The translations under genes were made by a program, and so were the position numbers. Below, piece by piece: positions 24,559-51,827 of a stretch of 64,000 nucleotides of DNA (its first letter is position 1; every line of letters starts with the position of its first letter). The stretch is from Cinnamomum chago. Its lineage: Eukaryota; Streptophyta; Magnoliopsida; Laurales; Lauraceae. Location: the NCBI GenBank assembly GCA_038049695.1, contig CP142453.1, positions 112,068,501 through 112,132,500 on the forward strand. Direction: 5' to 3'. The notes under the pieces were generated by a model. It was not told where the DNA came from and did no database searches. It saw nothing but the letters and a program-made list of their open reading frames with translations.

Positions 24559-25252
24559 TGTGTGGGGCCCATTTCTTGAACCTGTTCCTCTTGGTCTCGG
24601 CAAGGGTGCGCTCGGATATGCTGACGTGTGGGAGCCATTTCTCTTGATCTCGGCTACGATCCGATCCATATCGGTCTCGGCACTACGTGCTGGTCTCGGC
24701 CAAACAGTACTCAGTTCGGCCGCACACCCCGTTCAGTCTCGGCTGTGCAAGACTATGTTTGCATCTATCAGCCACGGCCCTGTCAGGGCAGAGCCCAAGG
24801 AAGGCATCAGATGGGACTTCAGCCACCACCAGATCTGGGCAAGATCAGGCCCAACATGGCTAGCATTAAATGCAGCATGGGCTGATCAGACTCGCATTAA
24901 ATGCAAAGAGGGCTATGATGGACCTTCATTAATGACTTTGTGGGCTGATGTGACCCAGGTCACATCACCAAGCCCACTGGCACTCACCCAAAACTGTTCC
25001 ATATATAAGGCACGAGCCAAAGGGAGCAGGGGGTAAGCACTCTCACATAGACACTCAGTCTTTCTTCTTCTTCTCCTCCGATCCATTGCTGACTTAAGCA
25101 TCGGAGAGCCCTGCGCTGCCCATAGCCAGGGTCCTCTGACCTTTGTCTTTCTCCTCTTTCAGGTTCATACCGTCGCAGCTATCTCCTCCATGCATTGAGT
25201 AAGTCCTAAGAGGCATCCTGATCTTGTGAGTATTATTACTTCTGCACTTACA
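24559..25252 (+). repeat. 5' LTR of the Tat element
   Basis: 694 bp. A TATA-like TATATAAG lies at 25002-25009. Five copies of TCTCGGC occur between 24595 and 24743 in the presumed U3 part. It differs from the 3' LTR at four transition sites. Confidence 0.95.
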
Positions 25253-25254
25253 AT

Positions 25255-25270
25255 TGGCGCCGTCTGTGGG
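25255..25270 (+). other. Primer-binding site of the Tat element
   Basis: TGGCGCCGTCTGTGGG lies two bases after the 5' LTR and has the TGGCGCC start common in plant Ty3 elements. The primer tRNA was not assigned. Confidence 0.8.
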
Positions 25271-25306
25271 AAAAGATTTCTATAGTCTTTCCTATTCCTA
25301 AACACC

Positions 25307-28300
25307 ATGACGAGGAGAGCTGCGAAAGACGGAGAAACTTCCAAGACAAAGCATGCAGGACCGCCCCCTACCAAGCAGAGGGCTGGCAAGCAACCAGTCA
25401 CAGAGGACGACGCTGAACGTGCACTCATCCGGATCAACGTTCAGGAACGTGACCTCCGCTCGGAGTCCGCTCCCAGGAGGGGAGACACCCAGCAACCGGC
25501 AGGCCTCCTGACAGGTCAGGATCGGCGGCATAAGTCTCCAGTGGTCGATGGATCACGTCCCCCAGGTCAGGCGGAGGACGTTAAGGGCCGGGTGGAGGAC
25601 GTTGAGGATACTGAGGATGAAGACTACAACCCTGATGATGACTTGGACTCCACCCTTCTGGCGATTAAAGCACAGAATGAGGCCATCAAGGAGAGAGACG
25701 CTCTGATCCTCCGGCTCCAGCAGCAGCTGGAAAGAGCTACGGGATCAGCGGGGCTTCGGCAACAGTCTCAGCAGCGTCAGTCACGGCAGCAACAGCGGTC
25801 GCGACAACAACAACACTCACTGCGAAAGCACGAGCGGAGGACGTCCCGTGACGGGCGCCCCGACTCCCCCGAGAAGGACTTGAGGGACCATCTGAATAAA
25901 AAGAGGCTTGACCGAACTCGAGATGAAGGTTCGAGCGCTAGCCACAGCTACTCGAGGAAGGCGTCAGAAACCATCCCGGAAAGCAGACATCATGATCAGG
26001 AGTGGTTAGACGCGCGCATAAGGGAAACGGTCCAGCGTAATTTGGAAATAGCTGGTCTCGGCCGAGACCAAAAGGATAATTGTTGCGACCCCGTCGATCT
26101 CGGAGCGTCTCCCTTTTCTCGAGACATCAGGAAGCATCCCCTGCCAAAGAAGTTTACCGTCCCGAGGTTCGTCACTTACGACGGGACTTCGGACCCGGCT
26201 ACGCACCTCAGGCACTTCTCCCAGAGGATGTCTGTCTGGGGAGACGAGGGCCATCTGAACTGCCGAGTCTTTTCCTCTAGCTTGGGCGACATCCCCCTGA
26301 AGTGGTTCTGTGCGCTCCCGGAGGGGTCCGTCTCGAGTTGGCAGCAGCTCCAGCAGTCCTTTATGAAGAAGTTCCAGGCCTACAGAGTCCTTCCGAAGAC
26401 AGATGCAGACATCATGGCCATGAAGATGAAGCAGGGAGAGAACGTCACCCAGTTCGCCAAGCGGTTCTGGGCGGTCTACAGTCAGATTGAGAATTCCAAG
26501 GACGAGGTTGCCGTCTTCGCATTTCAGAATGCCTTGCTGCCAGACAGCGATCTTCGCAAGGACCTGGCCAGGAACCCGGTCTCTTCCATAGCAGCGCTCA
26601 TGTCTATCGCCAACCGGTACATCGCCCAAGAGGATGACCAGGTCCGTGCTCGGGAAAGCCATGGAACCGCTCAGAAGGACCGAGGTGAGAGGCCCTCCAA
26701 GAAGGATGGGATACCGTCTCGAAGAGATGAGCCTCGGCGAAGCGAGCGACGAAGAGATGAGTCGGACAGGCGTTGGGCACCTACCAGCTCGGCAGGGACT
26801 CAGATGTTCGCCTCGGCAAGGAGCAAAAGGCCCAGGCTATTCGAGGGCGCATATCGGGCGGTTAACACGGTCTTCAAGATGCCAATCCACAAGATCATGT
26901 ATAAGATCAAGGGTAGGCCATACTTCAACTGGCCAGAGCCCATGCAAGGCGACCCTTCTATCCGAGATCAGACGAAATTCTGTGCCTATCACAAGGAGGG
27001 TGGCCACAAGACTGAAGAATGCAGAATACTGCGTTCGCATTTGGAGAAGCTTGTCCAGGATGGACACCTGCAAGAGTTTGTCAGGAGAGAAGACAGGGCC
27101 AATACCCGAGCCCCGCGCCGTGATGAGAGGGGTAATGACAGCGACGGGTCTGAGAAGATCATCAACGTCATCCATTTGGCACCCCCGCCCAAGGGGAGTA
27201 ATCAAGCCCGTGCCGAAGCCAGGAAAGCCGCTCACGGCAAGCAAGTAATGGCCGCCGAGCTCGGCCCAGCACAGAAAAGGGCTCGGAGGGAGCGTCCCGA
27301 GATCAGGTTCACTGATGCAGATCTGGAGGGGGTGCAGCTCCCCCACAACGATCCCCTGATCGTTACTCTGAAGTTTGATTGCTCTAAGCAGGGCGTAAAG
27401 AATTGCACTGTGAAGAAGGTCATCGTCGACCCCGGCAGTTCTTCCGAGGTCCTCTATTTTGATAGCTTCCGAAGGATGGGACTGACAGAAAAAGATCTGC
27501 AGGAGGCTCGAGTTCCCCTTATCGGCTTCAGCGCCAAACCAGTTTACCCCAAGGGGAAGGTGACATTCAGGGTCGAGGCCGGTGGCGCGTCTGTCATGGC
27601 AACCTTCATGGTGATCGACGCACCCTCGCCCTACAACGCTATAGTAGGCAGGTCCTGGCTCCATAGTCTGGAAGCAGTCCCTTCCACCCTCCACCAGAAG
27701 CTGAAATTTCCGTGGGAGGGGAAGAGCGGCCGAGTTGAAATCATCACGGTCAGAGGAGATCAGCAGGCAGCTAAGCAGTGCTTGACAGCAGTGGTACCCG
27801 GGGAACTAGAGCCCAAGGAGGTCAACGTGGCCGAGATGGAGAAAAACCTGGAGCAGGGGCTGGATGAGCTCGGCCGAGATCCAGGCAGGAAGAGCCTGGA
27901 GGATTTGACCGAAATCCGGATCGACCAGAAGGACCCGGATCGGTTCTTCCTAATCGACAGCCAGCTCGGGGAACCGGAGAGGTCCGAACTGGCCCAGTTC
28001 CTGGTGCAGAACAGAGAGGCCTTCGCCTGGACACCTCAAGAGATGCCTGGCATCGACCCCGAGGTAATGTGTCACAGACTAAATGTTAACCCTAACCACA
28101 AACCTGTGATGCAGAAAGCACGGAGGACTGGGGTCCTGCAGACCGAAGCCGTCGTCGAGGAGGTGGATAAGCTGCTTGAGGCCGGCGCTATCAGAGAGGT
28201 TCAATACCCGACCTGGCTGGCCAATCCTGTGGTGGTCAGAAAGAAGACTGGCAAGTGGAGGGTGTGCGTCGACTTTACCGACCTCAACGAGGCCTATCCC

Positions 28301-28864
28301 AAGGACAGCTTTCCCCTACCAAAGATTGACCAGTTAATCGACGCCACGGCCGGGCACGACAGAATGAGCTTCCTCGATGCCTACCGCGGTTATCACCAGA
28401 TTCCGCTGTATGGACCGGATGAAGAAAAGACAGCTTTTATCACGCCCAGGGGAACCTACTGCTATAAGGTGATGCCGTTTGGGCTGAAGAATGCGGGCGC
28501 CACCTACCAGAGACTCGTCACCAAGATGTTCCACGGTCAGCTCGGCAGGACCGTAGAAATTTACATCGATGATATGGTGGTCAAATCCAAGCTGGCGCAG
28601 GATCACTTGGCAGATCTAGCCGAAGTCTTCGCCATCCTGAAGAAGTACAATCTCAAACTCAACGCCTCCAAGTGCGCTTTTGGCGTGGGTTCTGGCAAAT
28701 TCCTGGGAAGCTTGGTCACGCGCAGAGGAATAGAAGCAAATCCAGATCAGATCTCGGCTATCCTCAGAGTCCAGAATCCCACTTCGGCTAAGGAGGTTCA
28801 GAAGCTTATAGGAATGGCCGCGGCACTGAATCGCTTCATCAGCAAATCCTCAGATAAGTGCTGA
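25307..28864 (+). CDS. Tat retrotransposon gag, protease and most of reverse transcriptase
   Basis: 1185 codons, then a TGA. Residues about 281-395 are a retrotransposon gag domain (FTVPRFVTYDGTSDPATHL, PLKWFCALPEGSVSSW). Near residue 558 is the CAYHKEGGHKTEEC knuckle used by Tat elements. Protease has IVDPGSSSEVLY near 706, in place of the usual D-T/S-G. Reverse transcriptase covers about 962-1165, with VCVDFTDLNEAYPKDSFPLP, SFLDAYRGYHQI, TAFITPRGTYCYKVMPFGLK and the catalytic YIDDM near 1086. The start chosen is the first ATG after the primer-binding site. The stop falls in the connection between reverse transcriptase and RNase H, where relatives stay open; the frame continues unchanged after it, so this is a point lesion and not a frameshift. 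Confidence 0.93.
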   Translation: MTRRAAKDGETSKTKHAGPPPTKQRAGKQPVTEDDAERALIRINVQERDLRSESAPRRGDTQQPAGLLTGQDRRHKSPVVDGSRPPGQAEDVKGRVEDVEDTEDEDYNPDDDLDSTLLAIKAQNEAIKERDALILRLQQQLERATGSAGLRQQSQQRQSRQQQRSRQQQHSLRKHERRTSRDGRPDSPEKDLRDHLNKKRLDRTRDEGSSASHSYSRKASETIPESRHHDQEWLDARIRETVQRNLEIAGLGRDQKDNCCDPVDLGASPFSRDIRKHPLPKKFTVPRFVTYDGTSDPATHLRHFSQRMSVWGDEGHLNCRVFSSSLGDIPLKWFCALPEGSVSSWQQLQQSFMKKFQAYRVLPKTDADIMAMKMKQGENVTQFAKRFWAVYSQIENSKDEVAVFAFQNALLPDSDLRKDLARNPVSSIAALMSIANRYIAQEDDQVRARESHGTAQKDRGERPSKKDGIPSRRDEPRRSERRRDESDRRWAPTSSAGTQMFASARSKRPRLFEGAYRAVNTVFKMPIHKIMYKIKGRPYFNWPEPMQGDPSIRDQTKFCAYHKEGGHKTEECRILRSHLEKLVQDGHLQEFVRREDRANTRAPRRDERGNDSDGSEKIINVIHLAPPPKGSNQARAEARKAAHGKQVMAAELGPAQKRARRERPEIRFTDADLEGVQLPHNDPLIVTLKFDCSKQGVKNCTVKKVIVDPGSSSEVLYFDSFRRMGLTEKDLQEARVPLIGFSAKPVYPKGKVTFRVEAGGASVMATFMVIDAPSPYNAIVGRSWLHSLEAVPSTLHQKLKFPWEGKSGRVEIITVRGDQQAAKQCLTAVVPGELEPKEVNVAEMEKNLEQGLDELGRDPGRKSLEDLTEIRIDQKDPDRFFLIDSQLGEPERSELAQFLVQNREAFAWTPQEMPGIDPEVMCHRLNVNPNHKPVMQKARRTGVLQTEAVVEEVDKLLEAGAIREVQYPTWLANPVVVRKKTGKWRVCVDFTDLNEAYPKDSFPLPKIDQLIDATAGHDRMSFLDAYRGYHQIPLYGPDEEKTAFITPRGTYCYKVMPFGLKNAGATYQRLVTKMFHGQLGRTVEIYIDDMVVKSKLAQDHLADLAEVFAILKKYNLKLNASKCAFGVGSGKFLGSLVTRRGIEANPDQISAILRVQNPTSAKEVQKLIGMAAALNRFISKSSDKC

Positions 28865-30262
28865 CCTTTCTTTCAGCTTCTTAGAAAAAATTCTAAATTT
28901 CAATGGACTCTGGAATGCGACCATGCCTTGCAGCAGCTTAAGGCTTACCTTTCTTCACCACCATTGTTATCAACCCCGACCCACGGGGAAACCCTGTATT
29001 TATATTTGGCGGTCTCGGATCATGCGGTCAGCTCAGTCCTCATCCGAGAAGAGGACAAGGTTCAAAAACCAGTATATTATACGAGCAAGACCCTTATTGA
29101 TGCCGAGACCAGGTATCTGCCTCTGGAGAAGCTCGCCTTGGCGCTCGTTAGCACCTCGCGAAAGCTCTCCCATTACTTTCAAACCCATTCTATTGTGGTT
29201 GTTACGGAGCACCCACTCAAATCTGTTTTCAAGAAGGCTGACTTTTCAGGAAGAATCTCCCGATGGGCTGTCGAACTAGGGCAGTATGAGATTCAGTATC
29301 AGCCACGGACAGCAATAAAAGCCCAGGTTCTGGCAGATTTCCTCGCCGAGTTTGATTCAAGTTCGGCACCAACCCAGCTCGGCACCGAACTGGGGGGTGA
29401 GGAGCATGAGGCGCCCGCGAGTTCGGAACAATCACAATGCCATGCCGATACCCCAGTTTGGAAGGTCTTCGTCGACGGATCTTCCACCTCGAGAAGAGCC
29501 GGAGCAGGAGTTGTTCTCCAATCGCCAGAAGGACTGGTCATTGAGCAGGCTCTGACACTGGACTTCAAGGCGTCAAACAATGAGGCCGAGTACGAAGCCC
29601 TTTTAGCCGGACTGAATAGCGCCCATATCCTCGGAGCTCAACAGCTGATGGTCTTCAGTGATTCACAGTTGGTGACAAACCAGCTGACTGGGGACTATCA
29701 GGCTCGCGACGACCGGATGGCCGCGTATTTGGCCCTGGCCAAGAAGCAGCTCTCTCAGTTCCACACGGCCGAAGTCAAGCAGATTGACAGAGAAGTAAAC
29801 TCTCACGCAGATGCTCTTGCAAACTTGGCCAGCGCTGTTGAGGCAGGAAGAAAGAGGAGCATCGAAGTCGGATCGCTAGCTGCGCCCAGCATTGAGCTCC
29901 GTTCACCTCGGGAAGTGTTATGCATCGGTCTCGGCCCGAGCTGGATGGACCCCATTATCACCTACCTTAGGGACGACAGGCTTCCCGAGGACAGTGGCGA
30001 GGCCCACCGGGTCAGACTCAAGGCAGCTCGGTTCTGGCTATCTCCCGAGGTCAAGCTCTACAGGAAATCGTTCTCGGGACCGTACCTCCAGTGCGTCCAT
30101 CCAAGTAAGGTCGAGGACCTCCTTTTCGAGATACACGAAGGAATCTGCGGGAGCCATATCGGAGGAAGGTCCCTAGCCTACCGAGCCATCAGTCAGGGTT
30201 ACTGGTGGCCGTATATGCAGAAAGATGCGCAGGTATATGCGAAGAAGTGCGAGAAGTGCTAG
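28865..30262 (+). pseudogene. Tat pol continuation: RNase H, second (archaeal-type) RNase H, integrase zinc domain
   Basis: Same frame as the upstream segment, so it is pol cut off by the TGA at 28862-28864. Residues after the stop give the Ty3 RNase H ([38 protein letters not shown]). From about 29459 comes an extra RNase H with its acidic residues in place: [26 protein letters not shown] and [11 protein letters not shown]. Next is the integrase HHCC zinc domain ([12 protein letters not shown] ... YAKKCEKC). A TAG at 30260-30262 directly follows the last Cys. An ATG at 28928 opens a 444-codon frame, but nothing suggests that it is used as a start. Confidence 0.9.
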
Positions 30263-31180
30263 AAGTTCTCACACTCTCTCCATCAGCCCGCGCAGGATCT
30301 CAGCCCGCTCTCTAGCCCGTGGCCATTCGCCCAGTGGGGGCTCGACATAGTGGGCCCGCTCCACCGAACCCCAGGGAACAAGAGATGGCTTATTGTGGCG
30401 ACAGATTACTTCACCAAATGGATTGAAGCAGAGCCACTTTCATCCATCACAGAGCGAGACTCCAAGAATTTTGTGTGGAAGAATGTCGTCACAAGGTTTG
30501 GCATTCCCAGAGCGCTGGTTTCGGACAACGGAACTCAGTTCGACTCTAAACTTTTCAAGACCTTCTGCCAGGAGCTCGGCATCCGAAACCATTATTCCAC
30601 TCCAGCCTACCCACAGAGTAACGGCCAGGCCGAGATCTCCAACAAGGTGATCCTCGATGGGCTCAAGAAACGGCTGGACCAAGCAAAGGGAAGATGGGTG
30701 GAAGAACTGCCGAGCGTCCTGTGGGCTTACAGAACTACTCCGAGGCGTTCCACTTCGGCTACCCCCTTCTCACTCGCCTATGGCATGGAAGCAGTCATCC
30801 CTCTGGAGATCGGCCTCCCCACTTTGAGGTCCGAACTCTTTGACCGGGGACAGAACGAAACCAATGTGGCCAGGGAGCTAGATTTAGCGGACGAGCGAAG
30901 GGAAGCAGCTGCAGTCAGGCTAGCCGTCTACCAGCAGCAGCTAGCCAGGGGCTACAACCAGAACGTCAGAGAGAGGAAGTTCTCTGTAGGAGAACTGGTC
31001 CTCAAGAAGGCTCTCCCAGGGGACAAAGATCCGAATCAAGGGAAGCTAGCGCCGAATTGGCATGGTCCGTTTAAAGTCACTTCCATTGCTGGACGGTCAG
31101 CTTATCGGCTCGAAGACATGGAGGGACGGCCGCTACCGAGACTATGGAACGCCTCACACCTCAAAAAATTCTATTTTTAG
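30263..31180 (+). pseudogene. Tat pol continuation: integrase core and C-terminal domain
   Basis: In the same frame as the two upstream segments and ending at the natural stop TAG (31178-31180). The DDE triad is complete: Asp in WGLDIVGP (30344), Asp in VSDNGTQF (30524) and Glu in SNGQAE (30632), the last two 35 residues apart as in retroviral-type integrases. The C-terminus has the GPY/F-like WHGPFKV and ends ...HLKKFYF, with no chromodomain. The full frame from 25307 would be 1957 codons if the two stops were absent. Confidence 0.9.
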
Positions 31181-31295
31181 TCTCTGTACTTGTACAACGC
31201 TTCTGGATTTAATGGAACTACAGTTCTCCTCAATTTGTAGCGATCTGGCGTCCTGATAGTGACAATGGTGTGAAGTTGGAAGACCGTCTAAGGAT

Positions 31296-31606
31296 GGCAC
31301 TCAGCCACCTAGATGAGTCGCCGAAACGGCCCATATCTAAAGCTGGCACTCAGCCACCTAGATGAGTCGCCGAAACGGCCCATATCTAAGGCTGACACTC
31401 AGCCACCTAGATGAGTCGCCGAAACGGCCCATATCTAAGGCTGGCACTCAGCCACCTAGATGAGTCTCCGAAACGGACCATGTCTAAGGTTGGCACTCAG
31501 CCACCTAGACGAGTTGCCGAAACGGCCCATATCTAAGGATGACACTCAGCCACCTAGATGAGTTGCCGAAACGATCGGTGTCTACGGTTGGCACTCAGCC
31601 ACCTAG
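31296..31606 (+). repeat. 49-bp tandem array downstream of Tat pol
   Basis: Units starting GGCACTCAGCCACCTAGATG (GACACTC in two) begin at 31296, 31345, 31394, 31443, 31492 and 31541, with a 17-bp partial at 31590; spacing is exactly 49 bp. Each holds GAGTCGCCGAAACGGCCCAT or a one- to three-base variant. The array lies between the pol stop and the antisense gene. Confidence 0.95.
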
Positions 31607-31995: not shown

Positions 31996-34210
31996 TTAAG
32001 ACGCCCCAGCACCGACTTCATCAATAATCACTATCGGAGCGTCGTCAGGCTGTGCGACTTCAGCAAGAGCAGATGCCTCGGCTTGAGCTTCGGAGGGCGG
32101 GTGCGCTGGAATCTCGGCAGGGGCTTCGGGAGGAGGAGGTGCGTCAGCTTCGGCAGGGGCCTGAGGTACTGTTGTAGCTGGCTCGAGCTCGGGGGGGTTG
32201 ACATACAGCGGGTGCTCTTCATCCGCCCCCATCTCCTTGAGCCCAGCACGGAAACCGCGCTGGTACAGCTTGGAGCTCAGCTTCTTAACTTGATCAGTAT
32301 AGCTCCGGCCTGCCTCGGCGGCCCCCTCCAGGAAAGCAGCGTCAACCTCGGCTTGGAGTGATGCCTGTAACGTCTCCTTTGCCTTCTTCTCTCCCTCCAG
32401 TTCGGCTGCTAGCCCGACCACCTTTTTCTCCCCGGCAATGAGCTTGGCTTGCAATTCGTAGTGTTCTGATTTGATTTTGCAGAGCTCGCTCGTCATCAAC
32501 TCGGCCTGAGCGTCGAGCTCGGCCTTCTTCGCCCCCACCACCTCCAGCTCCAAGCATTTGGCCTTAAGTCCGGCCTCGGCCTTCTCCTTCTCCTTTGTTA
32601 TTCGGCTCAGGCGGGCACCCTCTTCCGAAATCCGATCCATCACTATCTGAAGCCTTTGGACGCCCTGCAAGGAAACAGGTGAAGAGGTTTTAGTAATGTG
32701 AAGTCTCTGCAAAACTCAAAAGCAATACCATTGGGAACTCTGCGCTTACCGCGAGCGAATGTTGCATCGCCCTCATAAGCAGTTGGGGGCTGTCCTCCGC
32801 CTTGTGCCTCTCCATGTCTTTTGGGAGAGCACAGGCCCTGCTTAGTGCCGCAATGACAGCGGGGTTCCCCGCCAGCCTATCCTCTATGTTGAGCGGCCTG
32901 CCCCGCCGTAACTCGAGGTCCAGTTTGAAGGCAGCCGATTCGGCCGATGACGTGGGCGCAGGGGACTGGGTGCGACCCCCCGCCGACGGGGTCGCTCGTG
33001 TCGGAACCTCCACCGCGCTCCTCTCCCTAGCAGCTTGGGAGGGCCGAGGCCCCGACCTCTCCTCTTGGGTGGTCTCCTTCCCCTTAGCCCTTTTCCTGGG
33101 CCTCTCTTCTTCAGGGTTTGCGGAGGGCCGGGCCCCATCGCTGGCAGGGACGACGGCATCGAAGGGGGGCGGATTAGCTCTTGGGGCTGCTGGCTGCCCG
33201 CCAAATGTCGCCTCCTCCAAGTTCAATAGCTGAAGGGAAGGCCTTCGCCTCGCCATGTCCTCGGCTCCGGAGGAATAGTTCTCAACTTCCCTTGTCGGAG
33301 AGTCTACCTCGGCTCCGGAGGTATAGTCTTCAATTTCCCTTATTGGGATGCCCGCGACCACGGCCAACGTTGCGGACGCTCCCGCAACCGAGACGGTCCC
33401 GCTGGTTTCGGCTAGATCGGGGGCGAAGTTCTCCGGGTTGCCGGATTTCCGTGTATAAGACACGTATCTCGGCTCGTACTTCAGAAGGGAGTAGGCAGCT
33501 CTTGTGTGGTGGCCGCGGTAGCAGTACACCTTGTTCAGCCAAGGTGCGTGCCTCCTCCAACCGTTCAGCTGGGCTTCGCGCTTGCGTTGAGAAAGGCCTG
33601 CGAAAAACAGCCGAGTTAGAATCCGGCAGCAGAAATCAAACATAAGAAAGAAATCGGAAACCCAGGGGGTTAGGTCTTTACTCGGTGGAGTCCCGAAGCG
33701 TCGAGGGACTCGGACCCTCCTAGCTGCTTCGGTCTCGGTCTCGCCGAACTCCCAGTTTCCCGAGACGAGCAGGCGGTCATCTCCGGCGTATTTATTGGAG
33801 TCCTCCAGCGCCGTGACGAGGGGTTGGCACCTCGCCTTGACGCGAAGATAATAGGTGCCCGCCTCCCTAGACTTGCAGAGGTCATATATATCCTCTATAT
33901 CATGGACGCCGAGGCTGATGTCTAGAATCCTATTCAGCTCGGCGACGCCCATGATGATCTTATACCCATTGGGCATTAACTGACAGGGGCTAAGGTTCCA
34001 GGTCTCCAAACAAGACCTAAGAAGGAGGGCCAAGGGGAATCTGACCCCACCCTCGATCACGGCTATCAAGGGAAACGGCATCCAGCCGTTGTGAAATGAG
34101 TAGATGGGGGGGTCGGCTGCCATGATCCGGACATCGCCTGGGATCATGTAGACTCTCCTAAGAGTTGCCAGGCCCGCCTGGGAATCTATCCAGTGAGTAA
34201 AAATCCCCAT
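31996..34210 (-). CDS. Spliced antisense gene inside the Tat element (PF04195-like protein)
   Basis: Exon 1 is 34210-32750, with an optional 84-bp intron (33681-33598, GTAAAG...TTCGCAG) whose retention keeps the frame. Exon 2 is 32664-31996, joined across an 85-bp GT-AG intron (GTAAGC...CTTGCAG) in phase 0. This gives about 709 residues, or 681 if both introns are removed. The N-terminus (YMIPGDVRIMAADPP, GGVRFPLALLLRSCLETWNL, SPCQLMPNGYKIIMGV) resembles the plant 'putative gypsy-type transposon' domain. The middle is Pro/Arg/Ser-rich, exon 2 begins with a Lys/Glu/Ala coiled coil (residues EKEKAEAGLKAKCLELE...), and the tail is Pro/Ala-rich. It runs against pol, as in some Tat elements such as Grande. 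Its role is unknown, and calling it one spliced gene is inference from splice signals and phase. The start ATG has context GAAATGG. Confidence 0.75.
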
Positions 34211-34889
34211 TTCTGGATCTAAGAATTCTAAGGGTCCTTACAGCAAGAGGTGGTGAACGGAGGTACCCCTAAGAAACCCTAGGGGCTGGGTCTGGAATGT
34301 AAATGAAGGAGGAGGAAGCGGAAGAAAACTCACTGGTTCGACGGGGCAAAGTCAGACTCCGACTGACGGATGTGGGCGACTACTGCTGGGAAACAGTAGG
34401 AGGTCTGGTCCTAGTCCGGCGGCGCTGGTTCTAGCAGAAAGCAGAAGTTCAGGCAGAGAGCAAGAGAGTCCAGGAGCAAAAATGATAGGAGGAAGAAGAC
34501 GAAAGCGTATATGAAGGGCAGAAATGGGCGCCATCCCGGAATTCGAAGCGGGACACGCGTGAGATGTCGCCTCGGCTTGCGTCGCACGCCCCCTCGAAAA
34601 GACAAGAGAGCCTACCAGGCAATAACGCGTGGCGCTGTTGCGATGATGGTTCGCCTTCCCATACTAATCATAGCCCCGCATTTATTGCCCCCTTTATTAT
34701 CTCTGGCAGACGAAGCAGCGGCGGCGTCTGGCGCCGAATGAGTCAGAACCCTTAAACAAAAGCGGATGGAAGGCGAGCACTATCCGTCTCGGGAGACCGG
34801 TTCAGTTCTTAACCCTAGTGCGGGGGATCAGTCCAGCTCTTAACCCTAGTGCCCGAAAGAGCCCTAGAGGTCAAGAACTGAGGGGCTAT
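34211..34889. other. Tat 3' untranslated region, antisense-gene upstream region and polypurine tract
   Basis: No recognised protein. This region must hold the promoter of the antisense gene, but no clear TATA box was seen. The purine-rich GAGGGG (34880-34885), just before the 3' LTR, is the likely second-strand primer. The phrase 'cttaaccctagtg' occurs twice (34809 and 34839). Confidence 0.55.
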
Positions 34890-35583
34890 TGTGTGGGGCC
34901 CATTTCTTGAACCTGTTCCTCTTGGTCTCGGCAAGGGTGCGCTCGGATATGCTGACGTGTGGGAGCCATTTCTCTTGATCTCGGCTACGATCCGATCCAT
35001 ATCGGTCTCGGCACTACGTGCTGGTCTCGGCCAAACAGTATTCAGTTCGGCCGCACACCCCGTTCAGTCTCGGCTGTGCAAGACTACGTTTGCATCTATC
35101 AGCCACGGCCCTGTCAGGGCAGAGCCCAAGGAAGGCATCAGATGAGACTTCAGCCACCACCAGATCTGGGCAAGATCAGGCCCAACATGGCTAGCATTAA
35201 ATGCAGCATGGGCTGATCAGACTCGCATTAAATGCAAAGAGGGCTATGATGGACCTTCATTAATGACTTTGTGGGCTGATGTGACCCAGGTCACATCACC
35301 AAGCCCACTGGCACTCACCCAAAACTGTTCCATATATAAGGCACGAGCCAAAGGGAGCAGGGGGTAAGCACTCTCACATAGACACTCAGTCTTTCTTCTT
35401 CTTCTCCTCCGATCCATTGCTGACTTAAGCATCGGAGAGCCCTGCGCTGCCCATAGCCAGGGTCCTCTGACCTTTGTCTTTCTCCTCTTTCAGGTTCATA
35501 CCGTCGCAGCTATCTCCTCCATGCATTGAGTAAGTCCTAAGAAGCATCCTGATCTTGTGAGTATTATTACTTCTGCACTTACA
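34890..35583 (+). repeat. 3' LTR of the Tat element
   Basis: 694 bp, aligned without gaps to the 5' LTR at an offset of 10,331. Differences are C/T near 24710/35041, T/C near 24756/35087, G/A near 24814/35145 and G/A near 25212/35543. Confidence 0.95.
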
Positions 35584-43257: not shown

Positions 43258-43830
43258 ATGGAGTCCCCCCATCGCCTGCTGCTCGGAGATGTGGCACCAC
43301 CGGCCAATGGAAGCAAGTCACACCTACATGGAGCCTATGGGAATGAGGCGAATTTCGATACCAACATGGTGATCATTCTCGCCGCGCTCTTGTGTGCACT
43401 AATCTGTGCACTTGGGCTCAATTCAATTGTGCGGTGCGCCCTGCGGTGCGGGAGGAGGATGGTCTTTGAGACACCGGAGCAGGCCGCGGCACGCCTAGCA
43501 ACAACTGGCCTGAAGAAACGCGCTCTTCGCCAGATTCCGGTGACGGTGTACAAGTCAGAGACAAGTATTCGAGCGACGGAGTGCCCCATCTGCCTAGGGG
43601 AATTCATGGAAGGTGAGAAGGTAAGAGTCCTTCCCAAGTGCAACCATGGGTTCCATATGAAGTGCATTGACACATGGCTCATGTCCCATTCCTCCTGCCC
43701 AACTTGCCGGCACTCCTTGTTGGAGCGGCCGGTGCCGGATTCTACTGATTTGGAGGCCGGAATTCAGTCCCATGGAACTGGGTCCGACCATCAGGCCACG
43801 GTGGTCGGAATTCCAGATGAGGCCAACTGA
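43258..43830 (+). CDS. ATL-family RING-H2 finger E3 ubiquitin ligase
   Basis: A single-exon frame of 190 codons, as is usual for ATL genes. A membrane segment lies at residues about 37-60 ([20 protein letters not shown]). A GLD-like motif, [12 protein letters not shown], lies at 84-95. The RING-H2 finger has all eight ligands: C109, C112, C128, H130, H133, C136, C147 and C150, in the exact spacing C-x2-C-x15-C-x-H-x2-H-x2-C-x10-C-x2-C, with W140 in CIDTWL, the residue that contacts the E2 enzyme. The tail (151-190) is acidic and probably unstructured. ATL proteins sit in plasma or endosomal membranes and move ubiquitin from an E2 to target proteins, often early in defence or carbon/nitrogen signalling. 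It looks closest to the ATL72-79/ATL8 type, but the exact member cannot be named. It looks intact. Confidence 0.95.
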
Positions 43831-49921: not shown

Positions 49922-49923
49922 AT

Positions 49924-49935
49924 TGGTATCAGAGC
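49924..49935 (+). other. Primer-binding site (initiator tRNA-Met)
   Basis: TGGTATCAGAGC, two bases after the 5' LTR, is the standard plant Copia site complementary to the 3' end of initiator tRNA-Met. Confidence 0.95.
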
Positions 49936-49976
49936 GGGTTACACTATTTTATTGTGTTGATCCAAATATTGCTAGA

Positions 49977-51827
49977 ATGGATACATATCGTGAAGGCACT
50001 TCAACCAATAAGCCTCCTCTGTTGGATGGTAACAATTATGCTTATTGGAAAGCCAGAATGGTTGCCTTTTTGAAAGCCATAGATCTGAAAGTTTGGAAAT
50101 CTGTTGTGAATGGCTATTCTTTGCCCATTATTACTGCTGATGGGATAACTGAACCCAAACCTGAAGATAAGTGGACAAAGGATGAAGAATTGGCTGCCAC
50201 TTGCAACTCTAGGGCTTTAAATGCTATTTATAATGGAGTTAGCATATCTGAGTTTCGTAGAATTTCTACATGCACTACTGCAAAAGAAGCTTGGGATATT
50301 CTGCAGACTGTGCATGAAGGGACTGAAACTGTCAAACAGTCGAAACTTCAGAAATTGTATACAGCTTTTGAAACCATAAAAATGGAGGATGATGAAACTT
50401 TTGATGAGTTTAATGCAAAGCTGAATACAATTGTGAATGATACCTTTACTTTGGGAGAGCCAATTCCTGAAAATAGAGTTGTAAAAAAGATTTTGCGGTC
50501 TCTTCCAGAAAGGTTTGATGCAAAGGTTGTGGCCATAGAAGAGAATAAAAATCTGAATATTCTCAAAGCTGAAGAATTAGTTGGCAACCTTCAGACTTTT
50601 GAAGCAAACCTAAGGAACAATGGAAAATCAAAATCCAAAGGTGTTGCTTTGAGAGCCTCCAAAGAATCATACAAGAAAATTTCTAGTGATTCTGAGTCTG
50701 ATTCTGAGGAGATTGATCCCCAAGTTGCTGTTGAGTTTATGAAGCAATTTCAAGCGTTCATGAAGGGGAAGAAAAGTAATTTGAAGATCCCTAAAAATTT
50801 TGTAAAGAAGAAAACTACTAAAGGGATTAAATGTTTTGAGTGTCATGGTTATGGACACATTGCTAGTGACTGTGCTAACAAGAAACCAAAGAAGAAGGCT
50901 TTCAATCTGACTTGGGATGATGATACTTCTGAGGAAGATGATAAAAAATCTGAGTCTGAGAAGCCTGAAGCTAGCAAAGAAAAATTCATGGCATTCATGG
51001 CAACATCAGTTTCTGCTACTCCACTTGTTTCTGATGAAGAGACTGATCCGGATGTTAGTGAGTCAGAGACAGAACATGATTGGCAAGCTGAATATCATAT
51101 ATTGTTTGCAAAGACCATGAAGATGCTCAAGATGAATGAAAAAGTGACTACAAGTTGGAAAGAATCTGAAGAGCAGAATACTTCTTTAAAAACTGAATTG
51201 TCTGAAGCTCTTACAAAAGTGAGTCACTTAGAGGCTGAAAATAACAAATTGGCAGATGAATTGACTGCGGAAGCACAGAAGTGTGTTTTGATTAATCATG
51301 ATATGAAGATCTTGAAAGCTGAAAATACCGATTTGCAAGGAAGACTCAAGATGGTTCTTTCTGAGTTGGATACAAGCAAGGCTTCCCTAAACAGGATGAA
51401 TGCAGGGTCTAAAAAACTTGATGACATCCTGTGTAGTCAAAAGGCAAAGAATAACATGCATGGCATTGGCTACGCTGACGGGGCATCTACATCAAAAGCC
51501 AAAGGTAATAATTGTTTTGTTCAAAATTCAGTTGTTACTAATTCTGCTGGTCATGTTACAAATACAGATTCCAAGAAGAAGAATGTGTCACGCCCTGAAC
51601 GTATACCCACTTGTCATCACTGTGGAATTAAAGGACACATTCGACCCCATTGCAATAAGCTGCGAAAGTCTCCAAAACAAAAGCAATGGAAAAAGCAGAA
51701 GGAAGCGTCACCTATGAAAACCAAAACTGTCTGGGTCAAGAAAGAAGACCTTCCATCTGTCTTAGTACACACTATGCTGAACTATCTGAAAATGCAAGTG
51801 TGTGTGCCAAAGCTTCATCACCCCTGA
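49977..51827 (+). CDS. Copia-type gag polyprotein
   Basis: 616 codons from the ATG at 49977. An upstream extension of the frame runs through the primer-binding site and starts with TTG, so it was not used. The N-terminus PPLLDGNNYAYWKARMVAFL and the following FETIKMEDDETFDEF and ENRVVKKILRSLPERF are the copia gag (UBN2-like) domain. A CCHC knuckle, CFECHGYGHIASDC, starts at residue 286 and a second, CHHCGIKGHIRPHC, at 546. Between them is an acidic stretch and a coiled coil (about 390-500). Gag forms the virus-like particle that packages element RNA. The frame is uninterrupted and ends 30-odd codons after KTVWVKKEDL, close to where protease would begin in a full element; the deletion of pol therefore starts near here. 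Confidence 0.92.
   Translation: MDTYREGTSTNKPPLLDGNNYAYWKARMVAFLKAIDLKVWKSVVNGYSLPIITADGITEPKPEDKWTKDEELAATCNSRALNAIYNGVSISEFRRISTCTTAKEAWDILQTVHEGTETVKQSKLQKLYTAFETIKMEDDETFDEFNAKLNTIVNDTFTLGEPIPENRVVKKILRSLPERFDAKVVAIEENKNLNILKAEELVGNLQTFEANLRNNGKSKSKGVALRASKESYKKISSDSESDSEEIDPQVAVEFMKQFQAFMKGKKSNLKIPKNFVKKKTTKGIKCFECHGYGHIASDCANKKPKKKAFNLTWDDDTSEEDDKKSESEKPEASKEKFMAFMATSVSATPLVSDEETDPDVSESETEHDWQAEYHILFAKTMKMLKMNEKVTTSWKESEEQNTSLKTELSEALTKVSHLEAENNKLADELTAEAQKCVLINHDMKILKAENTDLQGRLKMVLSELDTSKASLNRMNAGSKKLDDILCSQKAKNNMHGIGYADGASTSKAKGNNCFVQNSVVTNSAGHVTNTDSKKKNVSRPERIPTCHHCGIKGHIRPHCNKLRKSPKQKQWKKQKEASPMKTKTVWVKKEDLPSVLVHTMLNYLKMQVCVPKLHHP

Follow-up and report, generated by a model that had tools for sequence, protein, structure and literature searches.

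Retrotransposons of the Retand lineage, which belong to the Tat clade of Ty3/gypsy elements, carry between pol and the 3′ long terminal repeat (LTR) a region of 2,933-6,566 bp with an antisense open reading frame (ORF) (PMC11963269). According to that survey, antisense ORFs of the TRP28 type (Transposase_28, PF04195) occur in 97% of the Retand clusters, which came from 34 species, and regulation of transcription is the guess published for their products. Gene23 of the maize element Grande (Gomez-Orte 2013) encodes a nuclear protein, and its transcript arises from a promoter upstream of the gene (PMC7264820, PMC11963269). Ogre elements carry an intron in the sense strand (Steinbauerova 2008, cited in PMC6317226), and the antisense gene HBZ of human T-cell leukaemia virus type 1 (HTLV-1) is named in PMC11963269. 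Introns are said to be generally missing from plant LTR retrotransposons, Ogre and EVADE being the exceptions (PMC12786077), and a 2020 review called for the study of antisense and spliced transcripts (PMC7264820). Here we describe a gene on the antisense strand of a Retand-type element of Cinnamomum chago, found in a stretch of 64,000 nt, hereafter the window (assembly GCA_038049695.1, contig CP142453.1, positions 112,068,501-112,132,500 of the forward strand). Very probably, to judge from sequence comparison, it is one protein-coding gene of three exons with a TATA promoter of its own, which drives transcription in the direction opposite to that of the element, and with two old intron sites at which the transcript is spliced.

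The gene resembles the TRP28 ORFs described for Retand, among them ORF4 of the Silene element (PMC11963269, PMC7264820), in its position between pol and the 3′ LTR, its antisense orientation, its TRP28-related domain, the tandem repeats near it and the type of its element; it differs from them in that they are described as ORFs, whereas here a single gene has three exons and two conserved introns. Five of the six well-conserved TRP28 positions (G21, P25, L34, P46 and N47) match, at equal spacing, residues that are invariant in our comparison (G55, P59, L68, P80 and N81), but the sixth, F55, is a valine in the window, whose domain lies below the Pfam cut-off. As in Grande gene23, with its nuclear product, an antisense accessory gene follows pol and has a promoter, here presumed, upstream of it. 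The presence of introns in a Tat-clade element recalls Ogre, but those described here are on the antisense strand. HBZ, the antisense gene of a retroelement whose product is also nuclear, offers an analogy alone and no sequence relation is claimed; HBZ has a spliced form. Antisense frames, which a preliminary description of the window had given as known in some Tat elements, are indeed a described hallmark of Retand in their TRP28 form (PMC11963269), and we did not find the conserved spliced architecture in the literature consulted. The word intron is absent from the consulted text of PMC11963269 and PMC7264820, and no title or abstract opening among the literature matches listed (the best 10 of 189 in one search), a scope outside which the gene23 paper falls, dealt with introns in Retand or TRP28 antisense genes.

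Structure of the antisense gene and its conservation among copies

Downstream of pol, the minus strand has two open frames, 32690-34210 and 31996-32712. The preliminary description had joined them in phase across a GT-AG intron of 85 bp and had placed a second intron, of 84 bp, inside the first frame. Both introns were borne out (Table 1; the second with its GT-AG at 33681-33598), the junction numbers then given (32664/32750 and 33597/33682) being the correct flanking exon bases, and predicted splicing joins 529 + 848 + 669 nt into a single frame of 681 amino acids (aa). In the window sequence, TTGTAA and AATGAA motifs are located 3′ of the antisense stop codon; motifs of this type occur near plant poly(A) sites.

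The genome (1.06 Gb, 14 contigs) was then searched at the protein level, and the best 85 of 7333 first-look candidates, window included, were scored. The compared set consisted of the window and 60 of the 84 other scored matches, with about 4 kb fetched around each. Matches were ranked by likeness to exon 1-intron 1-exon 2, which biases upward the similarity found in that region. Four groups of copies were distinguished, A (12, including the window), B (12), C (20) and D (15); L031 and L052 fitted none, and mean identities between groups use the remaining 59 of the 61 copies. The spliced frame was intact in 47 of the 61 copies, a fraction biased upward by the exclusion by hand of 24 matches, of which 19 contained one or more stops, and 44 of the 47 had all four canonical splice ends. 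GT-AG ends were found in 60 of the 61 copies for intron 1 and in 58 for intron 2, including L051, which retains just 16 nt of intron 2 and was scored by its ends.

Every one of the 84 indel events in exon 2 was a multiple of three, as against 37 of 154 in intron 2; the figures were 97 of 373 in the 5′ leader and 24 of 476 in the 3′ flank, and the single event in exon 1 was not a multiple of three (0/1). Net length change was a multiple of three in 60 of 60 copies for exon 2, in 27 for intron 2, in 34 for the leader and in 31 for the 3′ flank. Intron 2 was 47-72% identical between groups and, L051 (16 nt) excepted, varied from 73 to 111 nt in length; that of L065 has 109 nt with a long poly-T run and that of L068 has 111 nt. 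Since indels keep the frame in exon 2 and not in intron 2, and GT-AG is kept while intron 2 is scrambled, more than chance must be involved. The antisense frames could alternatively be two or more separate, unspliced ORFs with fortuitous splice sites, in line with the consulted text of the survey, which describes antisense ORFs and never speaks of introns (PMC11963269). Such a reading is at odds with both the indel pattern and the kept splice ends of intron 2, as well as with the matching intron sites and phases of distant loci described below, and we consider it very improbable.

Ratios of nonsynonymous to synonymous divergence (dN/dS), computed among seven representatives, were 0.16-0.28 between groups for exon 2 (3′ part) and 0.17-0.33 for exon 3, at dS values of 0.5-2.3, save 0.10 for A-B in exon 3. 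Distances in the within-group pair C vs C2 were too small for an informative dN/dS, and exon 1 gave ratios from 0.12 to 1.54 and one undefined ratio, at a dS of up to 0.23. By this comparison, purifying selection acts on the protein encoded in exons 2 and 3, and the exons, introns, splice sites and frame are established at the sequence level; an antisense mRNA is presumably made and spliced. Antisense transcripts of LTR elements can also act as double-stranded RNA or small RNAs (PMC7264820), and the coding frame could be a by-product of a transcript that works mainly as RNA. The purifying selection on the protein makes this unlikely, an added role of the RNA being still compatible with it.

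Distant loci and the TRP28-related domain

The best 150 of 2100 candidates from a genome search with PF04195 were scored, and eight loci (L069-L076) were fetched, which form at least two related groups and not eight independent families. In all eight, the C-terminal end of integrase is found downstream on the other strand, as in the window. Exon 1 of the distant loci ends at the matching place (CTTG/GTAA, the slash marking the junction), and the intron at this site measured 71, 71, 71, 74, 66, 75 and 66 nt in seven of the eight loci, with phase 1 in the six that were joined. The intron before the coiled coil measured 80, 68, 81, 80, 75, 76 and 75 nt, again in seven loci, and was in phase 0, by eye, in five. 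Also by eye, L069-L076 have a further mid-gene intron that is absent from the window. Introns and a probable promoter of its own give the gene a host-like appearance, and the element might have captured it recently from its host. Against a recent capture stand the related gene antisense to the integrase end at 8/8 distant loci, the matching intron sites in the seven measured, and the prevalence of antisense TRP28 across the Retand clusters already cited (PMC11963269), and we hold it to be extremely improbable; an ancient capture of a host gene is possible.

The N-terminus had been described as PF04195-like. In direct scoring, the spliced product reached 12.0 bits and exon 1 alone 14.8 bits, both below the cut-off of 26.2 bits, and the exon 1 allele of L034 reached 21.7 bits; L069 scored 39.9 bits. 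When window-type exon 1 sequences (50 distinct copies with a 529-nt exon 1 and stop-free exons 1-2) were aligned by hhalign with six distant loci (L074 and L075 left out), the probability was 93%, with E 2.8e-7 and 29% identity over 149 columns, from profiles of low diversity (effective number of sequences, Neff, 1 and 1.4). The description therefore held as regards homology to loci above the cut-off, but not as regards the direct Pfam scores, and because the profile score is below the curated cut-off we refer to the exon 1 domain as a TRP28-related homologue and not as a member of TRP28/Transposase_28. Seven exon 1 representatives had 36 invariant columns in common. A Pfam scan of both window frames at E ≤ 0.1 gave no match for the 506-aa frame, and at E ≤ 10 the spliced product gave the sub-threshold PF04195 match and one chance-like match. 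A scan of viral contigs returned 48 pattern matches with no relative among them, and no similar solved structure was found at E ≤ 10.

The in-frame length of intron 1

Being 84 bp long, in frame and stop-free in the window, intron 1 had been viewed as an optional intron of regulatory interest, the retained form of which, with 28 additional residues, would be a second isoform. Exon 1, intron 1 and exon 2 form a continuous open frame in 50 of the 61 copies. This openness was rejected as a sign of a coding role: intron 1 is 98.5-99.5% identical between groups in the fetched copies, and the openness stems from the near-identity of the block in all of them, which amounts to about one observation and not to independent conservation.

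In a second search, with exon 3 of group D as the query, the best 150 of 4250 candidates were scored, frame endpoints being assigned by nominal group D lengths. In 45 of these 150, the open frame running upward from exon 3 stopped inside intron 1 or no more than six codons from it. It stopped elsewhere in exon 1 (572-699 codons) in 4 matches, within exon 2 in 25, and within intron 2 or exon 3 in 28; in the other 48 it had at least 700 codons and passed through both introns. Eleven of the 45 broken copies, and 10 controls with long open frames, were drawn from contigs C1-C3 among the matches listed. The lengths inferred for intron 1 in the eleven, which presume that exon 2 stays 869 nt, were 85, 86, 103, 105, 105, 107, 113, 113, 119, 142 and 145 nt, 9 of the 11 being frame-breaking, with an intron 2 of 90 nt in these copies; in the controls, intron 1 had 84 nt in 10/10. 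Donor-acceptor measurement confirmed the lengths of 85 and 86 nt in two sister copies, and among the matches listed 48 of 100 intron 1 donors were paired with an acceptor, at 84 nt in 45 cases and at 85, 86 and 87 nt once each. Divisibility by three is thus lost in most sister lengths as well as in four of the seven distant loci (71 or 74 nt). A meaningful optional intron was not supported by these data; the in-frame length is probably incidental, and regulated retention of intron 1 seems unlikely.

Mosaic structure of the subfamilies

Groups A and B were 91-99% identical by segment, except for the 3′ part of exon 2 (74%) and intron 2 (63%), and between the window and L020 a low-identity stretch (50-88%) extended from about 33240 to 32640. 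For A and C, identity fell from 98-99% over intron 1 and the adjoining 3′ part of exon 1 to 65% in exon 3. Leader and exon 3 alleles occurred in all four combinations, in 23, 6, 1 and 31 of the 61 copies, the rarest represented by L027 alone. These four combinations, together with the jumps in identity, indicate that subfamilies have recombined, the simplest route being a switch of template while reverse transcription was under way. Separate allele histories were observed for the leader, exon 1-intron 1, the 3′ part of exon 2 and exon 3 (window 34889-31750, L009-L068). Across the block 34049-33420, comprising exon 1, intron 1 and the beginning of exon 2, all 61 copies have at least 90% identity to the window, the intron included, and the flanks of the block differ strongly in some of them. 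This uniformity may reflect a recent sweep by recombination or constraint at the nucleotide level, and in part the bias of the search.

Taking copies and distant loci together, we lean towards a wider proposal: that the Retand antisense gene was ancestrally spliced, with two introns at fixed sites and phases older than the split of families that are about 25% identical in the N-terminal domain; that some of the antisense ORFs listed are exons of one gene; and that the 3′ half and the leader were exchanged as modules, with the exon 1-intron 1 block swept nearly unchanged.

Presumed promoter, leader and unspliced junctions

A TATA-like box upstream of the gene is kept in 61/61 copies, the window alone having a slightly worse form with CATATA, and it is kept although the leader that follows it is only about 60% identical between its two alleles. 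Given this conservation, an antisense promoter belonging to the gene itself is probable, in the internal region of the element. The preliminary description had placed the promoter next to the 3′ LTR; the likely promoter does lie between the gene and this LTR, but outside the LTR itself, about 0.37 kb from its edge on the internal side. In the leader, GTGAGT and TTAG motifs are present in all 61 copies and imply a length of 112-128 nt; the pair may represent a further intron, as yet unproven.

The spliced exon 1-exon 2 junction was searched for in the whole genome with up to 3 mismatches and was found in 0 places, vs 373 for exon 1-intron 1; for exon 2-exon 3, in letters fitting groups A, C and D and with up to 2 mismatches, the counts were 0 spliced vs 459 unspliced. 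Within the reach of this search, the genome holds no copies made from spliced antisense RNA, which fits the expectation that sense RNA alone is packaged.

Predicted product and proposed role

A basic motif of the RPRKRAKGK type, similar to a nuclear localization signal (NLS), was found in 49 of the 61 copies. In the window, the first 151 residues of exon 3 contain no proline, and the heptad score of this copy was matched by 1 of 2000 shuffles, suggesting that exon 3 likely forms a coiled coil. Of the coiled coil and Pro/Ala-rich tail proposed earlier, the heptad pattern followed by the tail is present, and the coiled coil itself is likely, the pattern being weak in L029 and modest in L054.

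Several observations weigh against the three-exon gene or some of its parts. Only 131 of the 208 indel events in exon 3 were multiples of three (net length was in frame in 57 of 60 copies), and exon 1 and intron 1 are too uniform in the fetched copies for a clear signal of selection. No NLS-like motif was seen in 12 of the 61 copies, and the heptad score was matched by 236 of 2000 shuffles in L029 and by 66 of 2000 in L054. The direct PF04195 scores, the low diversity of the hhalign profiles and the presumed constancy of exon 2 in the sister copies count in the same direction, and a single-sequence AlphaFold2 model of exon 1 had a mean confidence (pLDDT) of 32 and was discarded. The absence of intronless junctions would fit a lack of splicing equally well and was rejected as a proof of splicing. 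Even so, the evidence as a whole supports the initial view that a Tat-clade element carries an antisense protein gene with two real introns.

We propose that the antisense mRNA would start at a private promoter in the stretch that separates the gene from the 3′ LTR, would be spliced at the two old sites, and perhaps at a third in the leader, and would be translated into a nuclear accessory protein. As the introns could be removed from the antisense transcript alone, the sense genomic RNA would keep them, and they would therefore survive each round of retrotransposition. With its TRP28-related N-terminal half, NLS-like motif, likely coiled coil and Pro/Ala tail, the product may be an oligomeric nuclear accessory protein. 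Its most likely function, by analogy with the Grande protein and from published guesses, would be to regulate transcription of the element or its nuclear steps, and this is the weakest step of the proposal.

Conserved introns on the antisense strand would constitute sequence evidence of regular two-way transcription and of selection on the antisense protein. They also suggest that antisense reading frames known as separate units in such elements can belong together as pieces of a single spliced gene. Exact junctions are now available to be sought in existing RNA-seq data, and functional work on this protein family can use a full-length protein of 681 aa instead of fragments.

The host element and its surroundings

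An archaeal-type RNase H between RNase H and integrase is given for Ogre and Retand (PMC6317226). In the window, PF17917/PF17919, PF13456 and PF17921 follow one another in one frame and in the order of Ogre/Retand, and the PF13456 domain, judged from its place, would be the archaeal-type RNase H. About 3.7 kb, with the antisense gene inside, separate 31180 from 34890. On account of its domain order, tandem array and antisense gene, the element agrees with the description of the Retand lineage in PMC11963269. It is a young element. Its LTR pair is 99.4% identical across 695 aligned bp, and the flanks, GATTC vs AATTC, correspond to a target duplication with one mismatch. All pol parts are in one frame, with the final stop at 31178. 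The pol of the window copy is broken by in-frame stops at 28862-28864 and 30260-30262; the antisense gene is nevertheless intact.

Table 1. Features of the Retand-type element and its antisense gene (window positions)
Feature	Position	Strand	Remarks
5′ LTR	24559..25252	+	TG...CA; flank GATTC; ends read from sequence
Region ATTGGCGCCGTCTGTGGG..., which we take to be the primer binding site	25253..25275	+	adjoins 5′ LTR directly
gag and reverse transcriptase frame	25307..28864	+	Pfam PF03732 4.3e-10, PF00078 1.5e-30
pol, continued: RNase H, second RNase H (RVT_3 type), integrase zinc binding	28928..30262	+	PF17917, PF13456, PF17921 in order
pol, continued: integrase core and C-terminal end	30350..31180	+	PF00665 4.6e-12
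49-bp tandem array, 6.5 copies	31287..31606	.	Tandem Repeats Finder; between pol and antisense gene
Exon 3, 669 nt	31996..32664	-	proline-free stretch with heptad pattern, then Pro/Ala-rich tail
Intron 2, 85 nt	32665..32749	-	GT-AG, phase 0, frame-shifting
Exon 2, 848 nt	32750..33597	-	basic NLS-like motif RPRKRAKGK
Intron 1, 84 nt	33598..33681	-	GT-AG, phase 1; no in-frame stop
Exon 1, 529 nt	33682..34210	-	TRP28/PF04195-related domain
Candidate leader intron, 115 nt	34219..34333	-	5′ untranslated region, before start codon; GTGAGT...TTAG
TATA-like box, presumed antisense promoter	34508..34515	-	TTCATATA in window; TTTATATA or TTTATATT mostly elsewhere
3′ LTR	34890..35583	+	flank AATTC

Elsewhere in the window, a frame of 190 aa for a RING-H2 finger protein was noted at 43258-43830 (PF13639, 9e-16), and a Copia-type gag frame of 634 aa at 49923-51827 (PF14223, 2e-28) is probably part of another LTR element.
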